In this document: piece after piece, positions 1-10,885 of the stretch
Position numbering within the stretch: the first letter of the stretch is position 1
Layout of the letters: the number at the start of each line of letters is the position of its first letter
NCBI GenBank assembly: GCA_014382645.1
Contig: JACNJI010000246.1
Span: forward strand, 1-10,885
Length of the DNA: 10,885 nucleotides
DNA from: Verrucomicrobiota bacterium
Lineage (GTDB): Bacteria > Verrucomicrobiota > Verrucomicrobiia > Opitutales > Seribacteraceae
Reading direction: 5' to 3'
Program-made: the position numbers and the translations under genes
Notes under the pieces: generated by a model
Database searches by the model: none
What the model was told of the DNA's origin: nothing
Seen by the model: the letters and a program-made list of their open reading frames with translations, nothing else

Positions 1-626
1 GTGCCGACGGGTCGAATGCTAATGTTGGCATCGCATCGCAACTGTCCCTTCTCCATGTCGCAGTCGGAAATGCCCGAGTAGACCAAAGAGTTTCTAATAG
101 AGTTCAGGTAGGCAAACACCTCTTCGGGGGAGAATAGGTCGGGCTCGGATACGATTTCCAGTAGAGCGGATCCGGCGCGGTTGTAATCGACCAAGCTGTC
201 GTGTTCGGTATGGGTGAGTTTTCCGACGTCCTCCTCGAGGTGAATTCGGGTAAGCCGGACGCGACGGTGTTTGCCCATGACTGCCGGATTCTCTCCCGGA
301 AGCTCGATCTCGACGTGTCCGTGTTCGCAAATGGGCTGGTCGAACTGAGTTATCTGGTAGTTCTTCGGCATGTCCGGATAAAAGTAGTTCTTTCGATCCC
401 ACTTGCATACCTTTGCGATATCGCATCCGAGCAGTAGCCCGACCCTGATCGACTTCTCGATTGCCTCGAAATTCATGACCGGAAGGGCTCCCGGCAACCC
501 GAGAACCATTGGGTCGGTGAGGGTGTTGGGCGGTTCGCCAAATCCGCGAGGAACTCTCGTGAACATCTTCGAGTTCGTGTCCAATTGAACATGAACTTCC
601 AAACCTATGACAGTTTCGTACTCCAT
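1..626 (-). CDS. gatB: Asp-tRNA(Asn)/Glu-tRNA(Gln) amidotransferase subunit B, N-terminal part
   Basis: GatB binds the misacylated tRNA and activates the Asp or Glu side chain with ATP so that ammonia released by GatA can amidate it. The frame read from the ATG at 626 gives 208 codons and is still open at the window edge, so roughly the C-terminal half (the helical and YqeY-like tail) is missing only because the window ends. Visible landmarks are GLEVHVQL at residues 8-15, [11 protein letters not shown] at 81-91, HLEEDVGK at 129-136 and VDYNRAGS...EIVSEPD at 147-163, all typical of the GatB kinase-like cradle. The start is fixed by alignment of [12 protein letters not shown] with the family N-terminus. 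The gene begins 9 nt after the gatA stop; the gap is G-rich (GGGGCGG) and may act as a weak ribosome site. It is the last visible gene of the gatCAB cluster. Identification is very secure. Confidence 0.96.
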
Positions 627-635
627 AATCCGCCC

Positions 636-2102
636 CTAGAGTTGGGGAACCTTTCGTCCGAAGGAATGGACGGTATCGTAAGCGTTGGCGACGCGAAGCA
701 GATCCGTTTCCTTGAAGGCTTGGCCGATTATGTGAAGACCTACGGGAAGACCTGCTTCCGTAAAGCCGCAAGGCACTGAAAGAGCAGGAAGGCCGGCCAA
801 GTTGGTGGAAATGGTGAACACATCGCTGAGGTACATCGCGATCGGGTCCTCGTTGCGTTCGCCTTGGCGAAAGGCGGGTGTGGGGGAAGTGGGAGTCAGG
901 ATGGCGTCGACTTGCTCGAATGCTTTCTCGAAGTCCCGTCGAATTAGCGTGCGTGCTTTTTGGGCTCGAAGGTAGTAGGCATCGTAGTATCCGCTGCTTA
1001 GGGCGTAGGCACCGAGAATGCATCGGCGCTTCACTTCCTCACCGAATCCTTCGCCACGGCTCTTTGCATAAACGTCGATCGCGTTTTCGGCCCGGTCGCT
1101 GCGATGCGTGTAGCGTATTCCGTCGTAGCGAGCTAGGTTCGAGGAAGCCTCGGCTGTTGCGATTAGGTAGTAGACGGGGATCGATAGATCGGTCATGGGC
1201 AGAGAAATCTCGATGACCTCGTGCCCATCGTCCCGATAGAACTGAATCGCTTCGTCTACTAGTTTTCGGACTTCCTCGTCGATCGCCTCGCCAAAGAATT
1301 CCTTGGGCAACCCTAGCTTCAATGGGCCCGGCTTTTCGGCAAGAGCCCGATGGTAGTCGGGAACCTCTGCAGGGTAACTGGTGGAGTCGAGGGGGTCGTG
1401 CCCGGAAATGGTTTGGAGGAGGAGTGCGGCGTCTTCCACGGTTTGTGAAAAGGGGCCGATTTGATCCAGCGAAGAGGCAAAGGCGGCAAGTCCGTAGCGC
1501 GAGACCATCCCGTAAGTGGGTTTCATCCCGACCACTCCGCAGAGGGCTGCGGGTTGTCGGATCGAGCCGCCCGTGTCGGAACCCAAGGTCAGGGGGGCTT
1601 CGCGCGCTGCCACGGCCGCGGCGCTTCCACCACTGCTGCCACCCGGGACACAGGCGAGGTCCCATGGGTTGTTGGTTGCGCCGTAGGCTGAGTTTTCCGT
1701 GGAGGAGCCCATGGCAAACTCATCCAGATTGAGTCGTCCCCAGACCAGTGCGCCGGCATGCTTAAGTTTTACGATCACGGTGGCGTCGTAGGGGGAGACG
1801 TAATTTTCGAGGATGCGGCTGGCCGCCGTCAACGGCTGCCCCTTAACTGATATGACGTCCTTTACGGCAACCGGTACCCCGTCCAACGGGCCGAGCGATT
1901 CACCTTTCGACCTGCGTTCGTCGGAAGCATGCGCTTGAGCCAAAAAATCTTCGTCGTCGCGATGAAGAAACGCATGCACTTTTTCATCCACTGCTTCCGC
2001 TCGGGCGATAAAGGATCGGGCGATTTCGACGGCCGAGGTTTTGCCTGCCGCAAGCGCTTCGCCGAGCTCGGCGGCAGTCATTTCGTGCAAGGTGTCCGAC
2101 AT
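636..2102 (-). CDS. gatA: Asp-tRNA(Asn)/Glu-tRNA(Gln) amidotransferase subunit A (glutaminase)
   Basis: GatA is the amidase-signature subunit that hydrolyses glutamine (or asparagine) and passes ammonia to GatB. The 488-residue product has the normal full length. The Ser-cisSer-Lys triad is present: Lys81 in VAVKD, Ser156 in PGGSSGGS and Ser180 in DTGGSIRQPA. The spacing matches Lys79/Ser154/Ser178 of the S. aureus enzyme. The MSSTENSAYG-like loop (about residues 131-141) and the glycine/serine-rich signature that follows it are intact, so the enzyme should be active. The ATG at 2102 lies 15 nt after the gatC stop. The sequence before it (CTCACTGCTTGCC) contains no Shine-Dalgarno, so translational coupling to gatC is likely. 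The gene ends 9 nt before gatB. A long open frame in another minus-strand phase overlaps it and is not coding. Confidence 0.98.
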   Translation of the reverse strand: MSDTLHEMTAAELGEALAAGKTSAVEIARSFIARAEAVDEKVHAFLHRDDEDFLAQAHASDERRSKGESLGPLDGVPVAVKDVISVKGQPLTAASRILENYVSPYDATVIVKLKHAGALVWGRLNLDEFAMGSSTENSAYGATNNPWDLACVPGGSSGGSAAAVAAREAPLTLGSDTGGSIRQPAALCGVVGMKPTYGMVSRYGLAAFASSLDQIGPFSQTVEDAALLLQTISGHDPLDSTSYPAEVPDYHRALAEKPGPLKLGLPKEFFGEAIDEEVRKLVDEAIQFYRDDGHEVIEISLPMTDLSIPVYYLIATAEASSNLARYDGIRYTHRSDRAENAIDVYAKSRGEGFGEEVKRRCILGAYALSSGYYDAYYLRAQKARTLIRRDFEKAFEQVDAILTPTSPTPAFRQGERNEDPIAMYLSDVFTISTNLAGLPALSVPCGFTEAGLPVGLHIIGQAFKETDLLRVANAYDTVHSFGRKVPQL

Positions 2103-2117
2103 GGCAAGCAGTGAGGA

Positions 2118-2411
2118 TTATTCCTCGATTACCTTTGGTACCACCACTTGGTCCAGGCGTTGGGCGGGTGCGTTGGCGAGGGCTTCCTCGGCGGAAAACC
2201 CGGGTCGAGCTTCATCTTGGTCCCAGACGTTGTGTCGGGGAAATGCGTGAGCGGTGGGCTCGACACCCTCGACGTCTACTTCGCTGAGCCGGTCGAAGTA
2301 CTTGAGGATATCCCCAAACTGACCACGGAATTTTTCCTTTTCCTCTTCGCTCAGTTCGATCCGCGCGAGGTTGGCTACGTAGCCGATGTCCATTTCTTGT
2401 GATTCGCCCAT
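2118..2411 (-). CDS. gatC: Asp-tRNA(Asn)/Glu-tRNA(Gln) amidotransferase subunit C
   Basis: GatC is the small non-catalytic subunit that wraps around GatA and stabilises the GatA-GatB complex. The 97-residue length is typical. The N-terminal helix reads YVANLARIELSEEE, followed by the helix containing FGDILKYFDRL and the segment VEGVEPTAHAF near residue 50, the conserved proline-bearing region of the family. The charged C-terminal part (QRLDQVVVPKVIEE) is the usual GatC ending. The start could be the ATG at 2411 or the internal ATG six codons later (MDIGYV), which matches the usual family start more closely; neither has a clear Shine-Dalgarno. The gene lies 21 nt after pheT and 15 nt before gatA, consistent with one transcript joining phenylalanyl-tRNA synthetase to the amidotransferase. 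Confidence 0.94.
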   Translation of the reverse strand: MGESQEMDIGYVANLARIELSEEEKEKFRGQFGDILKYFDRLSEVDVEGVEPTAHAFPRHNVWDQDEARPGFSAEEALANAPAQRLDQVVVPKVIEE

Positions 2412-2432
2412 GGTGATGTCGTTTAAAGGAAT

Positions 2433-4868
2433 TTAGGAGCGTAGGGCGTAATCGGTGGTTTCGGCGAGTATTCGTTGGGTTTCGTCAAAGGCGGCGTTCA
2501 CGTCTTTGTCTTCGAGTGTGCGTTCGTCGGACCGGAAGCGGATGGCGCAGGCCACGCTTTTCTTCCCTTCCCCCAGTCCTGTTCCCTCGAATACGTCGAA
2601 AATGGTCACGGGATCGACGACAAACTTCTTGTCCGCAGCTTGCACGGCCGCCGTCTCCACGGCTAGGCGAACGTCTTCGGCGGGGACATTCTCGTCCACG
2701 ACGAGGGCGAGGTCCTTGAGGGCGGGAGGAAAAGAGCCAAAGGACCGGAACTTCACGGGTTTCACCTTTTGACGGAGCATCACGGGATCCACCAGCAACT
2801 CGCAGGCAAGGACGGGCCCATTCACACCTTTGTCCCGCGACAAGGAAAGTTTGCAGAACCCGACGGTTAGCTCGACCCGGTTTTGGTGCACGTCGCCGGC
2901 GGAGGCGACATGACCTTGCTGCCATGCCGAGGAGCCTTCAAGTGATCGGAGTCCACCTTTCGGCATGATGATTCCCGTTGCCGCGAGAAGGCGATTGGCA
3001 ATGAGCTTGGCCTCGTGGAAATCGGGGGCAAGCTCGGTATCCCATTCTCGAGCAATGGGTTTCGTCAATATGGCGAACGCTACGCTTTGCAGTTCGGTCG
3101 TGCCTTTTGGGCCCGGTCGAAGGACGCGACCCGACTCGAACACTCGACGCAGGTCATTGTGGTTGCGCTGGTTGTGGGCGAGCGTTTCCAATAGGCCCGG
3201 CAGCAGGGAAGATCGAAGGTGCGTGTGTTCGGCGGTTAGTGGATTGGCGAGGGTCAGGGCATCGACGGTGGCTTGGTCGGCCCATGCCTCGATTTCCTTT
3301 CCGTCCCGCAAACTGTAATGGCAACATTCGCGGAAGCCTAGCCCGACTAGAGCATCGACCGCTTTTTCGGAAAAGGTGAATTGGGCGGCGTCGTGGCGAG
3401 AAACGGCTTCGCACACTACTCTTGCTTCGGGAATCTCGGTTGTTCCGTGAATGCGGACGAATTCCTCGACCAGATCGATCGGTCGATCCACCTCGGCGCG
3501 AAAACTAGGTACCAAGACTTTCCACCGTTCACCCTTTTCGATGGTGAACCCGAGTCGGCTCCACGCATTCGCTAGTTGTTCGTTGGTCACTTCGTAGCCA
3601 CAGGTTGAACGAACAAAATCCGGTGCGATTTCTATTGTACGGTCTCCCCGTGGAGGATCCCCCACCTTGATTTCTTCTGGGACGAGTTCGCCGCCAGCAG
3701 TCTCGAGAATTAGGTCGATGGCTCGCCGAGCCGAATAACGCGTCAGCTGAGGATCAACGTCGCGGACGAAGCGATAGGAGCTATCCGTGCTCAAGTTGAG
3801 TTTTCTAGCCGTAGCCCGAATGTTTCCGGGAGAGAACCATGCGGCTTCCAGCACGATATCGGTGGTGTTTTCGTCCACTCCGGCATCCAGGCTGCCCATA
3901 ACTCCGGCGACGACCAATGGCTTTTCCGCGTCCGCGATCACCATCATCGACTCGTCGAGCTTGCGGTCGACCTCGTCCAAGGTCTTGATTGCTTCTCCCT
4001 CCGTTGCGTTGCGTACCCGAATTTCGTTGCCGCAGATTTTCTTGGCGTCGAAAGCGTGCAGCGGGTTTCCCGTTTCCATGAGAACGTAGTTGGTGACGTC
4101 CACCACGTTGTTGATGGGGCGAAGGCCGACGGCTTCGAGGCGCCGTTTCATCCATTCCGGGCTCGGCCCGATCTTCAAGCCCTTGATGGTCCAAGCGAGA
4201 TACAATTTACAATTTTCGGACTCGATGGAAACCTTCCTCAGCAGGTTGTCGGTCGATGGCTCGGAGACGGTCTGAGCATCCGATTTGAGCTCGGGGAATT
4301 GAATTTTACGACTATAGTGTGCAGCCAATTCTCGGGCCACGCCGAGGTGGCTCAGGCAGTCACCCCGGTTCGCGGTGAGCTCTAGGTCAAAGGTAACATC
4401 GGTGTCGGCGAACGCCTCCTTGATGGGTAGGCCCACTTCGGGACGATGGGCAAGAATGAGAAGTCCGTCGTGATCTTCGCCTAGGTTCAATTCTTTTGCG
4501 CTGCACATCATGCCCTCGGAGGTAACCCCCCGGAGCTTTGACTTCTTGATTTTGAAGCCACCGGGCAGTTTCGCTCCAGGAAGAGCCACCAGTACGCGAT
4601 CCCCCGGTTGAAAGTTTGATGCGCCGCATACGATGTTGGCTTCGGGCTGCCCTTCCCCGACGTTTACCGTGCAAACGCTCAGGCGATCGGCCTCAGGATG
4701 TCGATTGCGAGTCAGCACTTCGCCCACGACCACCTTGTCCATGTCGGCTGGTCCGCCGCCCTCAACGCCTTCGACTTCCATGCCGAGCATGGGGAATACG
4801 TCCACGAGCTCTTCCGTCGAGGCATCCACTTCGACGTAATCCTTGAGCCATTCTATGCTGACTTTCAT
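2433..4868 (-). CDS. pheT: Phenylalanyl-tRNA synthetase beta subunit
   Basis: PheT is the beta subunit of the (alpha-beta)2 phenylalanyl-tRNA synthetase. It carries the editing site for Tyr-tRNA(Phe) and contacts the tRNA. The 811-residue length is near the bacterial norm. Domains in order: an N-terminal segment starting MKVSIEWLKDYV; the EMAP/tRNA-binding OB fold at about 40-150 (HPEADRLSVCTVNVG, then VTSEGMMCSAKEL); the B3/B4 editing region at about 210-390 (NNVVDVTNYVLMETGNPLHA); the B5 domain at about 410-480 (RSTCGYEVTNEQLANAWSRL); the synthetase-like core; and an FDX-ACB anticodon-binding domain over roughly the last 95 residues (FRSFGSFPPALKDLALVVD to the C-terminus). The ATG at 4868 is only 6 nt after the pheS stop, which implies coupled translation and equal subunit supply. 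gatC follows 21 nt downstream. Identification is unambiguous. Confidence 0.98.
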   Translation of the reverse strand: MKVSIEWLKDYVEVDASTEELVDVFPMLGMEVEGVEGGGPADMDKVVVGEVLTRNRHPEADRLSVCTVNVGEGQPEANIVCGASNFQPGDRVLVALPGAKLPGGFKIKKSKLRGVTSEGMMCSAKELNLGEDHDGLLILAHRPEVGLPIKEAFADTDVTFDLELTANRGDCLSHLGVARELAAHYSRKIQFPELKSDAQTVSEPSTDNLLRKVSIESENCKLYLAWTIKGLKIGPSPEWMKRRLEAVGLRPINNVVDVTNYVLMETGNPLHAFDAKKICGNEIRVRNATEGEAIKTLDEVDRKLDESMMVIADAEKPLVVAGVMGSLDAGVDENTTDIVLEAAWFSPGNIRATARKLNLSTDSSYRFVRDVDPQLTRYSARRAIDLILETAGGELVPEEIKVGDPPRGDRTIEIAPDFVRSTCGYEVTNEQLANAWSRLGFTIEKGERWKVLVPSFRAEVDRPIDLVEEFVRIHGTTEIPEARVVCEAVSRHDAAQFTFSEKAVDALVGLGFRECCHYSLRDGKEIEAWADQATVDALTLANPLTAEHTHLRSSLLPGLLETLAHNQRNHNDLRRVFESGRVLRPGPKGTTELQSVAFAILTKPIAREWDTELAPDFHEAKLIANRLLAATGIIMPKGGLRSLEGSSAWQQGHVASAGDVHQNRVELTVGFCKLSLSRDKGVNGPVLACELLVDPVMLRQKVKPVKFRSFGSFPPALKDLALVVDENVPAEDVRLAVETAAVQAADKKFVVDPVTIFDVFEGTGLGEGKKSVACAIRFRSDERTLEDKDVNAAFDETQRILAETTDYALRS

Positions 4869-4874
4869 TGTCTT

Positions 4875-5912
4875 CTAGAACTGCGAAAGGAACCGAAGGT
4901 CGTTTTGGTAGAAGTGGCGAATGTCGTCTATGCCGTGCAGCATCATGGCGACACGCTCGATGCCGAGGCCAAACGCGAATCCGCTCCACTCCTCGGGATC
5001 GATGCCGACGTTGTCGAACACCTTGGGGTCGACCATGCCGCAGCCCATGATCTCGATCCATTTGTTGCTTAGGCGACCGAGGTTGCTGGAAAATAAGTCG
5101 ACTTCGAAACTGGGTTCGGTGAAAGGAAAGAAACTGGGTCGCAAGCGAGTCTTCACCTCCTTGCCGAACAGTTCCCTGAGCAGGTGGTCCAGTACGGCCT
5201 TGAGGTCGCGGATGGTAACCTTTGTGTCGACGTAGAGACCTTCGACTTGGTGAAAGTTGGCGCTGTGGGTGGCATCTACGGTATCGCGGCGAAAGCAGCG
5301 GCCTGGCGCAATAACTCTTATGGGAGGCTTTTCCTTGAGCATGGTCCGGATTTGCACGGAGGAGGTGTGCGTTCGGAGCACATAGGCTTCGTCGCTCTTT
5401 TTCGAGACGTTGCCGAAACGGGAAGCCTTGGGGAAATAGAGCGTGTCTTGCTCGTCCCTGGCCGGATGGTCTTCGGGCGTGTTGAGGGCATCGAAGCAGA
5501 ACCACTCGGTTTCTACCTCGGTGGCTTCAGCCACGGTAAATCCTATTTGGCGAAAGATCGAAGTTATGCGCCGCTTTACTTGAGTGAGCGGGTGTAAGCC
5601 ACCGACATAGTTTCCCGAAGGGGGCAAGGATACGTCCGCGGTCTTTCCCAAAGCGGCGGCGTCCTCGGCATTATCCAGAATTGATGCAGTTTGGGCCAAG
5701 AGATTCTCGATCTGTTTCTTGGTCTTGTTTACGGCTTGCCCGAAAGCGGGACGTTCTTCCTTAGCTACGGATGCAATTCCCTTCATCAGGGCCGTTAGTT
5801 TTCCATTCCCGCCGAGGATGATAGCCTTGACTTGGTCCAGTTGAAACCTTGCTTCAACTGCAGCCAAAGCGGATTCCGTTTCCGCTAAAATGGCTTGGAG
5901 TTGTTCCTCCAC
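4875..5912 (-). CDS. pheS: Phenylalanyl-tRNA synthetase alpha subunit
   Basis: PheS is the catalytic class II subunit that makes Phe-AMP and charges tRNA(Phe). The 345-residue protein has an N-terminal coiled coil (about 1-90, including LGGNGKLTALMKG and AVNKTKKQIE), then the catalytic core. Motif 2 is at about 207-225 (FRRDTVDATHSANFHQVEG), the substrate-pocket strand FPFTEPSFEVD is near 262, and motif 3 is at 311-324 (GFAFGLGIERVAMM). All expected residues are present. The start at 5912 is GTG; no ATG lies near the expected N-terminus, and MEEQL aligns with family starts. The preceding 23 nt after rplT contain no clear Shine-Dalgarno. I saw no pheM-type leader peptide or attenuator in the short gap, so control is probably shared with rpmI-rplT upstream. 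Confidence 0.97.
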   Translation of the reverse strand: MEEQLQAILAETESALAAVEARFQLDQVKAIILGGNGKLTALMKGIASVAKEERPAFGQAVNKTKKQIENLLAQTASILDNAEDAAALGKTADVSLPPSGNYVGGLHPLTQVKRRITSIFRQIGFTVAEATEVETEWFCFDALNTPEDHPARDEQDTLYFPKASRFGNVSKKSDEAYVLRTHTSSVQIRTMLKEKPPIRVIAPGRCFRRDTVDATHSANFHQVEGLYVDTKVTIRDLKAVLDHLLRELFGKEVKTRLRPSFFPFTEPSFEVDLFSSNLGRLSNKWIEIMGCGMVDPKVFDNVGIDPEEWSGFAFGLGIERVAMMLHGIDDIRHFYQNDLRFLSQF

Positions 5913-5935
5913 GCCGAGAGAGGAGACCTAGTCGC

Positions 5936-6295
5936 CTAGGCTTCCAAGGCAGCTTTGGCCTTCACCACCAATTCCTTGAACGCATCAGGGTCATGGATGG
6001 CGAGTTCCGAAAGCACCTTGCGGTTGAGGAGTATGCCGAGCTGTGTCAAGCCGTCGATGAATTGACCGTAGCGCAAGCCTTCGGCTCGGCAGGCGGCGTT
6101 GATGCGAATAATCCAAAGTGTACGGAATTCCGACTTCTTTTTCTTGCGGTCGCGATAGGCGTATCTTTCAGCGTGTTCCACTGCATCCTTCGCATAGCGA
6201 TAGAGGCGGGATTTGTTGCCGAAGTAACCCTTGGCTTTCTTTAAAACCTTTTTGCGGCGTTTACGGGTGGCGGGGACGTTGCGTGCTCTTGGCAT
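5936..6295 (-). CDS. rplT: 50S ribosomal protein L20
   Basis: L20 is a primary 23S rRNA-binding protein needed early in 50S assembly, and in several bacteria it represses its own operon. The product is 119 residues, the normal length. It has the basic extended N-terminus (MPRARNVPATRKRRKKVLKK, then AKGYFGNKSRLYR) and the globular C-terminal half (FRTLWIIRINAACRAEGL, GLTQLGILLNRKVLSELA). The ATG at 6295 is fixed by the conserved MPRAR start. The 45 nt between rpmI and rplT hold no GGAGG-like site (the final stretch is CAAGACTAACAAACC). The gene lies between rpmI and pheS, which is a common bacterial order. Identification is certain. Confidence 0.98.
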   Translation of the reverse strand: MPRARNVPATRKRRKKVLKKAKGYFGNKSRLYRYAKDAVEHAERYAYRDRKKKKSEFRTLWIIRINAACRAEGLRYGQFIDGLTQLGILLNRKVLSELAIHDPDAFKELVVKAKAALEA

Positions 6296-6340
6296 GGTTT
6301 GTTAGTCTTGAAAGGCTTAAATGGATAAAAACGGTTGTAC

Positions 6341-6526
6341 TTAACCGAGCGCCTCGATCACGCGGCGAGCCATCCCCTTCGCAAGGGATTGATCTTGGCG
6401 ACCCGCCCGCATTTGCTTGACCGTGCGTTTGCGGCGCAAGTGACGTTGGCCGGGCTTACGGTGCGTTACTTTTCCGGTTCCGGTTACTTTGAAGCGTTTG
6501 GCTATGCCTTTGTGTGTCTTTCTCAT
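6341..6526 (-). CDS. rpmI: 50S ribosomal protein L35
   Basis: L35 is a small basic protein of the large ribosomal subunit. I place the start at the ATG at 6526, giving 61 residues beginning MRKTHKGIAKRFKVTGTGKV and continuing through RHLRRKRTVKQMRA, which matches the family core. The frame is open upstream to 6610, but the extra 28 residues (hydrophobic, LLFFFSFAL) are unlike any L35 and come from translating the U-rich leader, so the longer start is rejected. No Shine-Dalgarno precedes 6526 (TAATTCACTGTAATCAG). rplT follows 45 nt downstream. infC, which often precedes rpmI, is not here; a small membrane-protein gene occupies that position. Confidence 0.95.
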   Translation of the reverse strand: MRKTHKGIAKRFKVTGTGKVTHRKPGQRHLRRKRTVKQMRAGRQDQSLAKGMARRVIEALG

Positions 6527-6606
6527 CTGATTACAGTGAATTAGAGCAAAAGAAAAAAAAAACAACAGATTTTTCACCCAACGGCAAGCCAAATGCCTTA
6601 TTTTGT
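6527..6606 (-). promoter_or_regulatory. U-rich leader of the rpmI-rplT-pheST transcript
   Basis: The 80 nt between the small membrane-protein gene and rpmI contain an uninterrupted A10 at 6553-6562 on the plus strand, which is U10 in the transcript, within a pyrimidine-rich stretch and with no Shine-Dalgarno after it. A short 4-bp stem (6584-6587 with 6595-6598) lies about 20 nt upstream of the U-run. It is too weak and too far away for a classical intrinsic terminator. A U-rich leader of this kind can act as a ribosomal protein S1 binding and translation-enhancing site; that role is inference. An L20 autoregulatory structure would also be expected near here, but I cannot fold one convincingly by eye. 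Confidence 0.35.
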
Positions 6607-6873
6607 TCAATCGTAAATAAGTAATCCGTGATAACTTTCGTAGGCGAACCAGGAGGCAAATACAAAAATGGCCAAGACAAAGAAAATCTTTGAGCAGCCT
6701 TTGAGTAGCCAGTGGGAGCTTTGGGTGTTGCCGGAGTTGTCGTCGCCAAAATCATGGAAGTAGTGGATCAAATCCCGATCTTTGGAACGCGAGTCGATTT
6801 TCCTGTAGATCGGGTTGGACACAGGGCGAGTTCTCCGATAACGCCACTGAAAAAATTTGTGAAGCATGATCAA
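6607..6873 (-). CDS. Small single-helix membrane protein, unknown function
   Basis: This is a hypothetical protein I do not recognise. From TTG at 6873 it has 88 residues, and from ATG at 6867 it has 86; neither start has a strong ribosome site. The first 30 residues are basic and aromatic (KFFQWRYRRTRP), residues 31-55 are polar and acidic (HYFHDFGDDNSGNT), and about 62-79 form one probable transmembrane helix (IFFVLAIFVFASWF) followed by a short tail. With positive charge before the helix, either orientation is possible. It begins 30-36 nt after the surE stop, on the same strand, and ends 80 nt before rpmI, so it may be read with surE. Alternative frames here are shorter and show no family features. 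The gene is likely real because it fills the gap cleanly, but no homology supports it. Confidence 0.5.
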   Translation of the reverse strand: MIMLHKFFQWRYRRTRPVSNPIYRKIDSRSKDRDLIHYFHDFGDDNSGNTQSSHWLLKGCSKIFFVLAIFVFASWFAYESYHGLLIYD

Positions 6874-6903
6874 GAAAAGGAAATAATGAGATCCTTCTTT
6901 CTC

Positions 6904-7698
6904 TCAAGGTAATTGTTTCGTCCGAATCCCGGAAAAGTTCAAGCGGGCGGCGCTTGCTTGCGAGTTTCGCAGGGCGGCTAAATCCGAACCTTCGGTCGGA
7001 GTGGTGATGTCCAGCCATTCCGTTCTGTAGACAAGACCGAAGCCGTTGCCATCCACCATGGGCTGGAAAAGACTGCCCAGTCGCAGGTTGTCGGGAAAGG
7101 CATCTACGAGTTCCGTTTGGCCTGATGTGTTGTCGGGGAAATTCAGGTTGTGGACCACCAATTCGCTTTCCGCAGGCTTTTCGCAAAGGGAGAGGGCGTG
7201 CATCGCACTTCGTCTGGCACTTTCTCGCAGCGATTCTAGGAGTCCCCCGGAAACCTGGCCCTTGCTTTCGCGTATCTGGTCGAACTCTTCAACGGGCAAG
7301 GCCATGCTCGAAGCAACGGATCGAATCCCGTGCAAGGCTCCCTCCAGTGCAGCTCCTACCGTGCCCGAGGATAGAACCATCGGAAGGGTTACGTTGTAGC
7401 CCAAGTTTATACCTGAAATCACGACGTCTGGTTCGCGAGGCATAAGGTGTCCTAGAGCGAAGTTTACGCAATCTGCGGGCGTGCCATTTAGCTTGAAGGC
7501 GGATCCGGGGAACCCCTCGACTGCTTCGGGTACAAGCCGCCGATGCCGACTTATCGCATGGCCGATCCAGCTCTGTTCCTCTGCGGGAGCACAGACGACT
7601 ATCTCGAACAGTTCCTCTGCGGCTTTCGTCAGTTCACGAAGGAACACCGAGTCGAAACCATCGTCGTTGGAGATGAGTGCAAGTGGTCGCTCGCTCAC
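6904..7698 (-). CDS. surE: 5'/3'-nucleotidase SurE
   Basis: SurE is a metal-dependent phosphatase acting on nucleoside 5'- and 3'-monophosphates and is linked to stationary-phase survival. The 264-residue protein carries the family metal site: ISNDDGF with Asp12 and Asp13, Ser43 in EEQSWIGHA, and Asn98 in SGINLGYNV. It also has LNGTPADCV at 70-78 and SSGTVGAALEGALHG at about 109-123, both hallmarks of SurE. The length is typical. The start at 7698 is GTG, supported by the short run MSERPLALISNDDGF into the first motif. Only a weak AGG lies about 9 nt upstream. The 158-nt leader contains a stem-loop whose 3' arm could also pair with codons 3-5 (see the leader entry). The gene lies downstream of the pnp fragment and 30-36 nt upstream of the small membrane-protein gene. 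Confidence 0.95.
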   Translation of the reverse strand: MSERPLALISNDDGFDSVFLRELTKAAEELFEIVVCAPAEEQSWIGHAISRHRRLVPEAVEGFPGSAFKLNGTPADCVNFALGHLMPREPDVVISGINLGYNVTLPMVLSSGTVGAALEGALHGIRSVASSMALPVEEFDQIRESKGQVSGGLLESLRESARRSAMHALSLCEKPAESELVVHNLNFPDNTSGQTELVDAFPDNLRLGSLFQPMVDGNGFGLVYRTEWLDITTPTEGSDLAALRNSQASAARLNFSGIRTKQLP

Positions 7699-7856
7699 GT
7701 AATGGAAACCTGGTTTAGCCGGCGAGCGACTCCGCTGATTTTAGCGAAGTCGCTCATCCGAAAAGGTGTGCTGGTAATTAATGCGATGGTTCAAGCTCCG
7801 ATCCGCACTTTCCCCTGAGTCAGTGGATGCGAGTCGGGTCTTGCCGGTAAGCCAAC
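7699..7856 (-). other. pnp-surE intergenic leader
   Basis: This 158-nt spacer lies between the PNPase stop and the surE GTG start. Its main feature is the stem-loop at 7724-7755. I searched for sigma70-type boxes reading towards surE; a TTGAAC-like hexamer at 7789-7794 (minus strand) has no good partner at 16-18 nt, so no promoter is called. There is no coding frame of note, and no U-tract follows the hairpin on either strand. Confidence 0.5.
7724..7755 (-). promoter_or_regulatory. Stem-loop in the surE leader
   Basis: Plus-strand GAGCGACT at 7724-7731 is perfectly complementary to AGTCGCTC at 7748-7755. Inside it, CGCT at 7733-7736 pairs with AGCG at 7743-7746 across a single C-A mismatch, leaving the loop GATTTT. 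This gives 12 base pairs close to the surE start. Because neither side is followed by a run of T, it is not a standard intrinsic terminator. The transcript's 3' arm also complements GAGCGAC inside surE codons 3-5 (7686-7692), so an alternative pairing that includes the start region is possible. Alternatively it may be a pnp 3'-end stabilising hairpin. Confidence 0.5.
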
Positions 7857-8354
7857 TTAGGATTCCTTGCTCGTTTCCTCTTCGGAATCGTCGGTGGATG
7901 CCTCGGCAGTAGCTTCTTTCACGGAATCGTCGGTAGCTGCTTCAGCGACTGTTTCCTCGACGGAATCGCTCGGAGTCTCTGAGGTCTCAGCATTATCCGT
8001 GGCTTTGGTCGCGGGAGTTGTTGCTTCCTCTTCCTTCTCCGCCGATTGCTGCTGTTCCTCCATGGCGGCTCGGCGGCTTAGCTTTACGCGACCGCGTTCG
8101 TCGATGCCGATGCACTTCACGATGATTTCGTCTCCCAGTTTGCAAATGTCTTCGGTCCTGTTGACTCGAAAGTCGGCCAGCTCGGAAATGTGGACGAGTC
8201 CTTCCTTGCCGGGCAAACATTCGACAAAGGCGCCGAAGTCCTTCACGCCGCGAACGATGCCGCGATAAATCTTGCCCGCTTCGATTTCGCCGGTGACGAC
8301 GTCAATCTCTTGCTTGGCTCGTTCCATGGCTTCGCGGTTTTTGGCGTAAACGCG
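7857..8354 (-). CDS. pnp: Polynucleotide phosphorylase, C-terminal fragment (5' end lost)
   Basis: PNPase is a 3'-to-5' phosphorolytic exoribonuclease that works in RNA turnover. Only 165 residues remain: the edge of the KH domain ([18 protein letters not shown], 1-18), a complete S1 RNA-binding domain at about 23-95 ([19 protein letters not shown], then [15 protein letters not shown] and [11 protein letters not shown]), and a 67-residue acidic tail rich in Glu, Ala, Ser and Thr. The two RNase PH domains and most of KH, over 600 residues in the family, are missing. The first ATG in the remaining frame is at 8327, but it is internal to the family and is not a true start. Immediately upstream the sequence changes to sulfatase in another frame. 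The tail ends in a 13-residue repeat. The S1 and KH remnant pattern fits PNPase better than ribosomal protein S1 because of YAKNREAM followed by a single S1 domain. Confidence 0.85.
7860..7967. repeat. 39-bp tandem repeat encoding a 13-residue acidic unit
   Basis: CGGAATCGTCGGT occurs at 7883-7895 and 7922-7934, and a variant, CGGAATCGCTCGG, occurs at 7961-7973. All three are exactly 39 bp apart. In the PNPase reading frame the units are [26 protein letters not shown] and a shortened [10 protein letters not shown] that ends at the stop codon. The unit length is a multiple of three, so copy number can change without breaking the frame. The repeat forms the extreme C-terminus of an already acidic, probably disordered tail. 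Confidence 0.75.
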
Positions 8355-9220
8355 AAGCCATTGTCGGACGTGTAAATGACCATCGTGTTTTCATCGAGGC
8401 CGTTCTTCTTGAGCGTCTCGAGAATCTGACCGACCGACCAGTCGATCTCCATGATGACGTCGCCGTAGAGGCCGCGTTTCGATTTGCCTTTGAACTTGTC
8501 GCTGACGTACAGCGGAACGTGCGGCATCGAATGCGGCACGTAGAGGAAGAACGGGTTGTCTTTGTTTTTCTCAATGAACTTAACGGCGTGCTCGGTGTAC
8601 CAGGTGGTGAGTTGCGTCTGGTCCTCGGGCGTCACCGGCAGCTTGATCGTTTTGTTGCCCTCGATGAGCGGTAGATGCGGCCACCGCTTCAGACGCTGTT
8701 CCATCGGCAGGTTGAGCACGTTCGGATGGTACGGCCACATGTCGTTGGAGTACGGCAGGCCGAAGTACTCATCGAAGCCGTGCTGCAGCGGCAGAAACTT
8801 TTCGTGGTGGCCCAGGTGCCACTTGCCGAAGATCGCCGTCGAGTAGTCGCGCTGCTTGAGCACCTCGGCGATGGTCATCTCGGCGGGGTTGATGCCGATG
8901 TTCGACTTCGGCCCGAGTGCTCCCAGGATGCCAAGCCTCACGTTGTAGCAGCCGGTCAGGAGGGACGTTCTCGATGCCGAGCACACCGCCTGCGACACAT
9001 AGAAGTTCGTGAAGCGGGCTCCTTCTTTCGCCATCCGGTCGATGTTCGGTGTCTCAATATCCGGCGAGCCGAAACAGCCGAGGTCCTGGTAACCCTGGTC
9101 GTCGGCAAACACGATGACGAAGTTGGGCGGCCTGGCATCGGCGGCCAGGAGGCAGGTCGGCTTGCTTTCAAGCAGGCCGGCGAGCAGAAACACGATGGCG
9201 ACGATCAGGCTGCGGTTCAT
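8243..9220 (-). CDS. Secreted type I sulfatase, 3'-truncated (arylsulfatase A-like)
   Basis: Type I sulfatases hydrolyse sulfate esters, often on polysaccharides, using a formylglycine made from Cys. From ATG 9220 there is a signal peptide (residues 1 to about 27, [12 protein letters not shown] core), then the metal-binding [11 protein letters not shown] at 38-48 and the maturation motif [11 protein letters not shown] at 80-90 with Cys80 as the formylglycine precursor. GKWHLG is at 132-137, and a metal-ligand SDNG is at 285-288. Homology stops at Gly288 (base 8357), where the family normally continues for 150 or more residues. The remaining codons down to 8243 are out-of-frame PNPase sequence and not sulfatase. 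The frame extends upstream to 9373, but that extension lacks a signal peptide. No strong Shine-Dalgarno is seen (GTGAGAATCACC before ATG). The missing C-terminal part makes a working enzyme unlikely as written. Confidence 0.88.
8326..8361. repeat. 11-bp inverted repeat at the junction
   Basis: ATGGCTTCGCG at 8326-8336 is the exact reverse complement of CGCGAAGCCAT at 8351-8361, with a 14-nt spacer. One further pair (8324 with 8363) forms beyond a mismatch. The right arm spans the point where sulfatase homology gives way to PNPase homology. Its position, more than its length, makes it notable. Confidence 0.7.
8352..8358. other. Breakpoint between sulfatase and PNPase sequence
   Basis: On the minus strand, sulfatase codons read up to Ser-Asp-Asn-Gly (last base 8357), while PNPase codons in a different frame are recognisable from RVYAKN (first base 8354). 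The two families therefore meet or overlap within a few bases, and both genes are broken at internal conserved positions. There is no target-site duplication, transposase or integrase nearby. The simplest reading is a chimeric join of two different molecules; a genomic deletion or recombination remains possible. Confidence 0.8.
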
Positions 9221-9496
9221 GGTGATTCTCACAGGAGCGGGTGAGGATGCGCGATGGAGGTCCGGATCCTGGCGGCGTGACCAGAGAGCGTCAAACACGG
9301 CGTGGGGAGGAGCAGCGAGGCTGCAAACTTTGCCCTCTTTACCAAAACTCGCTGACCGGGAGATTCTGCTCACGCGGAAGACTCAACCTGACCGATAGAG
9401 TCAGATGAGCGCAGGTGCTTCGGACTGACGTCTGCGCGGACCTTCAAAAACACTCGCCCGTGGACCGGCGGCTCGAAAATCAAAGGAGTGGCAAGG
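9221..9496. other. Divergent intergenic region between sulfatase and DUF11-like gene
   Basis: This 276-bp stretch separates two divergently read genes and should hold both promoters. I see no convincing -35/-10 pair in either direction. A 6-bp inverted repeat (GCGCAG at 9409-9414, CTGCGC at 9432-9437) overlaps a competing imperfect stem (9402-9407 with 9429-9434), which could be an operator or a leader structure. The sulfatase frame remains open to 9373 but shows no protein-family features there. Confidence 0.45.
9483..9488 (+). promoter_or_regulatory. Shine-Dalgarno of the DUF11-like gene
   Basis: AAGGAG lies 8 nt before the ATG at 9497. It is the only strong ribosome-binding site among the gene starts in the window and fixes the start of the downstream gene. 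Confidence 0.75.
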
Positions 9497-10885
9497 ATGC
9501 TGCAGAAGAAACTCTGGCTGGCAGGTGCTTTGGGAGCCGTCTGCCTCGCGATTTCCGCTGGCATTGCTCAGGACCAGGCCCCCGAGTCCGCTCGCCCGAC
9601 CGAAGGGGGAGTGACTGTCATTCCACGATCTGGAGCACCGGCCGCGGACGGAGAGCTTCGCGAATTCGCCCCCGAGTTGCGTCGCTATCAGCGTTCCCGT
9701 CCAGCAGCGAGTGCTCAACCGCGAGCCGCGACTCCGGCTGAGGTAAGCCCCGTTCCAGCCGTCCAGAATTATCACAGAGAATTGTTCGGCACCGAGCCGC
9801 CGCCAGTCAGCGCTCGACCCCAGTCGCGTCCCTTCGCGGCGGAAATTCAGGAGCGGCGTTCCCGGCTGACTCCAGCCAGGTCGGCTCAGCCCGCTGGTCG
9901 CCCTGCTTCGCGAGCTGACAACCCAGGCCTCTCACGAATCCAGCAAGCTGGCCACGAGGAAACCACCTCTCTGCCGCTGACTCCCGCCACACCGGGAAGC
10001 GTGCCTCAGTTGTCCGAGGTTCCAGCGCGGCGAGTCGTTCCGGCGGACTACACGGCGAGCGATTCCCGCGAACCGATTCGGCAAGTCAGTGTGCAGCAGG
10101 CTGTTTCGACTTCGCCACCGGACTTCAACGCGATCCTGGCGGGGCCGGCCCGAACCTCGCCACCATCGATTGCGGAGCTTTCAAACACACTCAACCCGGC
10201 GCCCGCATTACAGCCAGTCAAAGGTGCCGAGATTCGCCGGCATTTTTCAAAGAATTCTCAGCAGGGCTCGCCGCAAATCGAAACCCTGTGGCGGAAAAAA
10301 GGCGACATCAACGTCGGCCAGGAATGCGACCTTGAACTGATCGTGAAAAACACGGGTAAAGCAACGGCGTCATACATCGAAGTCGCCGTCGAGTTTCCCG
10401 AGACCGTCCAGCTTGTGTCGGCCTCACCCAAGCCGTTTTCTGACGGCACCTGGAAGCTCCCTGAAATGGTCGCCGACAAGGAACATCGCATCGACATCAC
10501 GTTGATCCCGTTGAAGCGTGGCGAGATCACAGCGAACGCGAATGTCCGCTTCACTTCGGCGGCCACGTCGGTCTTCAGCGTTGAGGAGCCGATGCTGGCC
10601 CTCGCGGTGAAAGGCCCCGAGAAGGTCAGCCTCGGTGAGCCTGCTTCGCACCTGGTCACAATTTCCAATCCGGGCACCGGAGTCGCTCATGATGTCAGTG
10701 TGATGGTCACCGTGCCGGAAGGACTCCAGCATGCCAGCGAACGCAAACGCCTGATGATGGACCTCGGTTCGCTCAGCCCGGGGGAGAAGCGAAACGTACG
10801 ATTGTCGCTGACGGCTGTCGGCGGCGGCGATCAGTCCATCGTCATCGACGCAAAGGCCGGCAACGAACTGACTCAGCAGTCGAAG
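9497..10885 (+). CDS. Secreted DUF11-repeat protein with long disordered N-terminal region, 3'-partial
   Basis: The frame opens at ATG 9497 and runs 463 codons to the window end without a stop. Residues 1 to about 24 form a signal peptide (KKLWLAGALGAVCLAISAGIA, cleavage likely before QDQ). Residues from about 25 to 250 are low-complexity, rich in Pro, Ala, Arg, Ser and Gln, and probably disordered. From about 262 two beta-sandwich modules follow: the first holds GQECDLELIVKNTGKATA and VEFPETVQLVSASP, and the second (from about 370) holds KGPEKVSLGEPASHLVTISN and VTVPEGLQHA. The GxxxxxxxxVxNxG pattern is that of DUF11/CARDB-like repeats, which are common in large surface proteins of Planctomycetota. 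More repeats are expected beyond the window. Its role is unknown; an exported envelope or matrix protein is the likely location. It is divergent from the sulfatase. Confidence 0.85.
   Translation, partial: MLQKKLWLAGALGAVCLAISAGIAQDQAPESARPTEGGVTVIPRSGAPAADGELREFAPELRRYQRSRPAASAQPRAATPAEVSPVPAVQNYHRELFGTEPPPVSARPQSRPFAAEIQERRSRLTPARSAQPAGRPASRADNPGLSRIQQAGHEETTSLPLTPATPGSVPQLSEVPARRVVPADYTASDSREPIRQVSVQQAVSTSPPDFNAILAGPARTSPPSIAELSNTLNPAPALQPVKGAEIRRHFSKNSQQGSPQIETLWRKKGDINVGQECDLELIVKNTGKATASYIEVAVEFPETVQLVSASPKPFSDGTWKLPEMVADKEHRIDITLIPLKRGEITANANVRFTSAATSVFSVEEPMLALAVKGPEKVSLGEPASHLVTISNPGTGVAHDVSVMVTVPEGLQHASERKRLMMDLGSLSPGEKRNVRLSLTAVGGGDQSIVIDAKAGNELTQQSK

Follow-up and report, generated by a model that had tools for sequence, protein, structure and literature searches.

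Misassembly is named as the source of chimeric contigs in the GUNC paper (PMC8201837), where it is described as relatively rare compared with mis-binning. A second described route to joined DNA is the template-switch chimera of multiple displacement amplification (MDA). In the MDA study (PMC1855051) displaced 3' ends are described as priming at short complementary stretches; for joins of segments more than 10 kb apart the numbers of direct (58) and inverted (69) joins were similar, and complementarity was seen in only 34.8% and 27.6% of them.

The window, by which we mean the whole stretch of 10,885 nucleotides analysed here, is the entire contig C503 of the draft genome G000, which comprises 3.79 Mb in 557 contigs with a completeness of 88 and a contamination value of 0.06. 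Sequence comparison leads us to conclude, with a probability of about 95%, that this contig is a chimera of the DNA of two organisms, positions 1-8356 being native and positions 8357-10885 planctomycete. The apparent gene fusion between pnp and a sulfatase that it contains is almost certainly an artefact and not real biology. Like the chimeric contigs described in the GUNC paper (PMC8201837), the window holds differently sourced fragments in one contig, which a low contamination value does not reveal; what sets it apart is that we can name both its breakpoint and the native partner contig that is missing from it.

The breakpoint and the two halves of pnp

The native part of the window (1-8356, minus strand) carries part of gatB followed by gatA, gatC, pheT, pheS, rplT, rpmI, surE and the 3' end of pnp, where the labels gatB, pheT and pnp come from sequence and synteny with no Pfam call behind them. 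In BLASTN it forms a single unbroken alignment to contig C22 of the same-genus genome G003, with 88.7% nucleotide identity, which ends at position 8356. Alignments to sulfatases begin at position 8357 or 8358. The join can therefore be placed at 8356/8357 from the BLASTN breakpoints, given on the left by G003 and G004 and on the right by the sulfatases of G003, G004, G122, G040, G042 and G039. This lies within the interval 8340-8365 of the original prediction, but the distance between pnp-like and sulfatase-like sequence is 0-1 nt and not the approximately 7 bp that had been proposed.

Both truncated genes are on the same strand, as had been noted, and this is the minus strand. The pnp piece (7857-8356) consists of the end of the KH region, an S1 domain (PF00575) and an acidic tail; judged from the pnp of G003 the break falls inside the KH domain, in agreement with the earlier reading. 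On the other side of the join is the 5' part of a secreted planctomycete-type sulfatase (8357-9220, minus strand; PF00884, with its counterpart on contig C13 of G122), which stops after the motif SDNG. Its open reading frame matches the Pfam Sulfatase profile over profile positions 1-247 of 301, and the match extends as far as residue 344 (of 376), which is five residues past SDNG, consistent with the gene having been broken where the original prediction put it. Reading through the join gives a false open reading frame (9373-8243) with a foreign C-terminal tail, also as foreseen, although the number of residues that follow SDNG is 37 instead of 38. Beyond the sulfatase a gene for a DUF11-domain protein of planctomycete type (9488-10885, plus strand; PF01345, with its counterpart on contig C145 of G122) is cut by the end of the contig.

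The other half of pnp, for which a search of the same assembly had been suggested, is present on contig C216. This 5' piece of 591 amino acids (residues 1-591, C216:3-1775) runs off C216's own end. The 758-residue pnp of G003 holds both pieces, and when they are placed on the uninterrupted pnp genes of G003 and of G004 the end of C216 and the window piece are 32 nt apart. Along C22 of G003 the contigs follow in the order C508, window, C216. Since C216 and the window stop on either side of one 32-nt stretch of a gene that runs without interruption in both relatives, the break would most simply lie in the assembly and not in the gene. The first 60 nt of C216 (L017) differ at five positions from the bases common to G003 and G004, and three of these differences alter two residues, giving IRRIPAVTGA as opposed to IRRITEVTGA; perhaps these are sequencing errors at the contig end.

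The set of relatives comprised 38 genomes including G000 itself, with 24 from the same genus or family and a further 13 from the same order. In 20 of the 24 the pnp match lies in one open frame of at least 730 amino acids. The remaining four are G019, where the frame is 661 amino acids long, G001, where it is cut by a contig end, and G002 and G021, which gave weak matches only. None of the relatives with pnp in one such frame (20/24) has the pnp-sulfatase adjacency of the window, as judged by frame length, the sequence having been read through across the site in G003 and G004 only.

These observations bear on whether planctomycete DNA was really inserted into pnp with the loss of 32 nt, so that C216 and the window would be the two flanks of the insertion. 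The presence of both pnp pieces in the assembly, with the intervening 32 nt in neither contig end, would fit such an event accompanied by a small target deletion. C216, however, simply ends within pnp with no foreign DNA, leaving the window flank as the only one that carries any, and the single long pnp frame in 20 of the 24 relatives also speaks against it. So does the search for a vehicle: no mobile-element protein was found among the 10 window proteins scanned with Pfam, and the window contains no tRNA and no Rfam family at the gathering threshold, in line with the earlier statement that no mobile element explains the join. The remainder of the DUF11 gene and the rear of the sulfatase were likewise not found in the assembly, which at 88% completeness is weak evidence. 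A real insertion is thus very improbable.

Origin of the two parts

The native origin of the left part is illustrated by pheT, whose product is 92% identical in G003 and 44-48% identical over its full length in all four of the same-order genomes tried, while in planctomycete-order genomes (6/6) the match is 38-40% and covers only part of the length. Separate assignment of the two sides, which had been proposed as a check, places the left with the assembly's own genus (88.7% nucleotide identity to G003 over 8356 bases, together with the 92% of pheT) and the right with the Planctomycetota, G122 giving the best match both for the sulfatase (n = 9) and for the DUF11 protein (n = 170). Together, the two origins by similarity, the sharpness of the breakpoint and the location of the remaining half of pnp on C216 bear out the suspicion of a chimeric join.

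For the sulfatase the amino acid identities in the nine planctomycete-order genomes are 89% (G122), 81% (G121), 80% (G040 and G039), 77% (G042 and G087), 71% (G043), 53% (G038) and 52% (G041), so that six of the nine fall within 77-89%. Here G043, G087, G121 and G122 are counted as planctomycete through the order that they share with G040, of which the record L114 is titled planctomycete. At the nucleotide level the sulfatase on C13 of G122 is 87.8% identical over window positions 8358-9146. Among the matches listed for the 24 relatives of the same genus or family, the best is 74% (G004, over part of the protein) and the next is 73% (G020, G023 and G024). The nearest paralogue in the assembly, on C310, is 70% identical. 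The GC3 of the window sulfatase is 0.85, as compared with 0.81 for the G122 sulfatase, 0.64 for C310 and 0.60-0.67 for five native genes. The rear half of the sulfatase was not found in the assembly when the rear of the C310 paralogue was used as the query, no match among the 50 listed, C310 itself aside, exceeding 54% identity. The 91 nt that lie upstream of the gene gave a weak alignment to C13 of G122, with a z of 2.2; its signal-peptide region came out below shuffled sequences, at a z of -0.9, so the power of this test is low.

The G000 assembly is rich in sulfatase-like genes, with 118 matches to the window piece at an E value of 0.001, of which the best non-self match is at 70%. Such abundance would suit a sulfatase that is native, with only its link to pnp misjoined within one genome, and it would also suit this reading that the DUF11 gene is far less close to G122 (56%) than the sulfatase is (89%). 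Against it stand the identity of 89% to G122 as opposed to 70% to the assembly's own paralogue, a GC3 that resembles that of the G122 sulfatase and is unlike that of C310, and an adjoining DUF11 gene that has no match in any of the 24 same-genus or same-family genomes. A native origin, which we regard as highly unlikely, was rejected on identity and GC3.

The DUF11 protein, for its part, has no match in those 24 relatives at an E value of 0.001 and weak matches in three of the 13 same-order genomes. Matches are present in 165 of the 170 genomes of G040's order, a proportion that is not unbiased because it was DUF11 hits that had led to this order in the first place and many of the matches span the DUF11 part only; the best is to G122, with 56% identity over the whole length. 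All six confirmed loci from a scan of genome_contigs, which reaches close relatives only, carry planctomycete titles and come from five isolates. The remainder of the gene is not in the assembly, where the 723-residue G122 protein matched the window alone, through residues 7-481. Two observations count against the foreign assignment of the right part: the GC3 of the DUF11 gene is ordinary (0.67, not distinct from native genes, with 0.69 for the G122 counterpart), and genomes of the assembly's own family are sulfatase-rich, with identities of up to 74% among the matches listed.

G122 carries its sulfatase and its DUF11 gene on different contigs (C13 and C145) with other neighbours, and the two occur together in none of 25 planctomycete loci of about 3-14 kb each, some of them overlapping. 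A 27-nt match to window positions 9539-9565 is present on the sulfatase contig of G042, where there is no DUF11 protein match. Because the sulfatase (89%) and the DUF11 gene (56%) have their counterparts on separate G122 contigs, a second boundary may be present within window positions 9147-9317. It is possible either that the gene order of the donor differs or that a second join lies in this interval.

Sequence at the join and its possible formation

The join is spanned by an inverted repeat (8326-8361) with arms at 8326-8339 and 8348-8361. Its perfect match across the join is 11 nt long, and at least 11 nt were obtained in 5 of 20,000 simulated random joins, this test having been picked once the repeat had been seen. 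One arm runs across the join; read on the minus strand, it is made up of TTCGCG, which matches the pnp of G003 and G004, and ATGGC from the sulfatase side. Within the pnp side TTCGCG can form a small stem with CGCGAA, and the ATGGC of the sulfatase side pairs with the GCCAT that follows. The pnp stem is not conserved, its second arm being CGCGAA in the window, CGTGAT in G003 and CGCGAT in G004. A functional RNA at the repeat was considered and dropped, as there was no Rfam match at the gathering threshold. A repeat that spans the join in this way hints at a chimeric molecule.

Immediately before TTCGCG the pnp genes of G003 and G004 have AAGG and the window has TGGC, and after the DNG codons the sulfatases have CCGTGG (G122) or CCTTGG (C310 and C130 of G003) where the window has TTCGCG. 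No sequence common to the two parents is visible at the join in these pnp genes (G003, G004) or these sulfatases (G122, C310, C130 of G003), and the join was therefore not steered by a k-mer of the usual length common to both. A repeat-driven assembly join is accordingly unlikely.

This bears on a variant of the chimeric contig, namely that it arose by pure assembler error, through shared sequence or gap filling, with no chimeric molecule involved; the product of this route would be the same. The fragmentation into 557 contigs, at least one of which (C508) has an end that looks unpolished, is in keeping with such an origin, and misassembly is the source of chimeric contigs named in the GUNC paper, which also calls misassemblies relatively rare (PMC8201837). 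The lack of visible shared sequence between the parents counts against the shared k-mer route and leaves gap filling unaffected. On balance, we regard a pure assembler error as possible but rather unlikely.

The join in the window has short complementarity, as do some of the template-switch chimeras in the MDA study (PMC1855051), but in contrast to those it links two organisms and needs a second, hairpin-guided strand switch. A single priming event by a 3' end fails to account for it: if ATGGC primed on GCCAT, the copy of pnp would come out reversed, whereas the pnp of the window is in the sense orientation, and a second switch therefore has to be supposed. The template-switch step is also weakened by the poor conservation of the pnp stem, by the choice of the repeat test in hindsight and by the minority of distant joins with complementarity in the MDA study. 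The join was consequently not assigned to the class of amplification template-switch chimeras, its orientation being unexplained by a single priming step.

The account that we favour for the chimeric contig is as follows. In the real genome pnp runs on into C216. The join would have started as a chimeric molecule: the end of a sulfatase strand (ATGGC) would have paired with GCCAT in pnp, and its extension would have copied the neighbouring stem before a switch to the other strand, and the assembler would have accepted this molecule where true coverage was thin. We would give such an origin by annealing, extension and strand switch roughly even odds; template switching during library preparation, twice over so that the orientation is restored, is plausible. 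In gatB, positions 10597-10751 of C508 (L018) overlap window positions 1-155 with 87.7% identity and 19 differences, at which G003 agrees with the window in 17 cases and with C508 in one. C508 and the window look like unmerged neighbours, the end of C508 seeming to contain errors; such a contig end suggests low depth, a situation in which one chimeric read may win. A simple de Bruijn branch is expected to leave an overlap, and it tells against the reading as a chimeric contig that C216 ends 32 nt before the join with no overlap left.

The contamination value of 0.06 gives no sign of the chimera, and the contig should be split at 8356/8357. Taken as it stands, it would yield a false sulfatase with a foreign tail of 37 residues and a pnp that is falsely truncated, as well as an erroneous case for transfer from the Planctomycetota.
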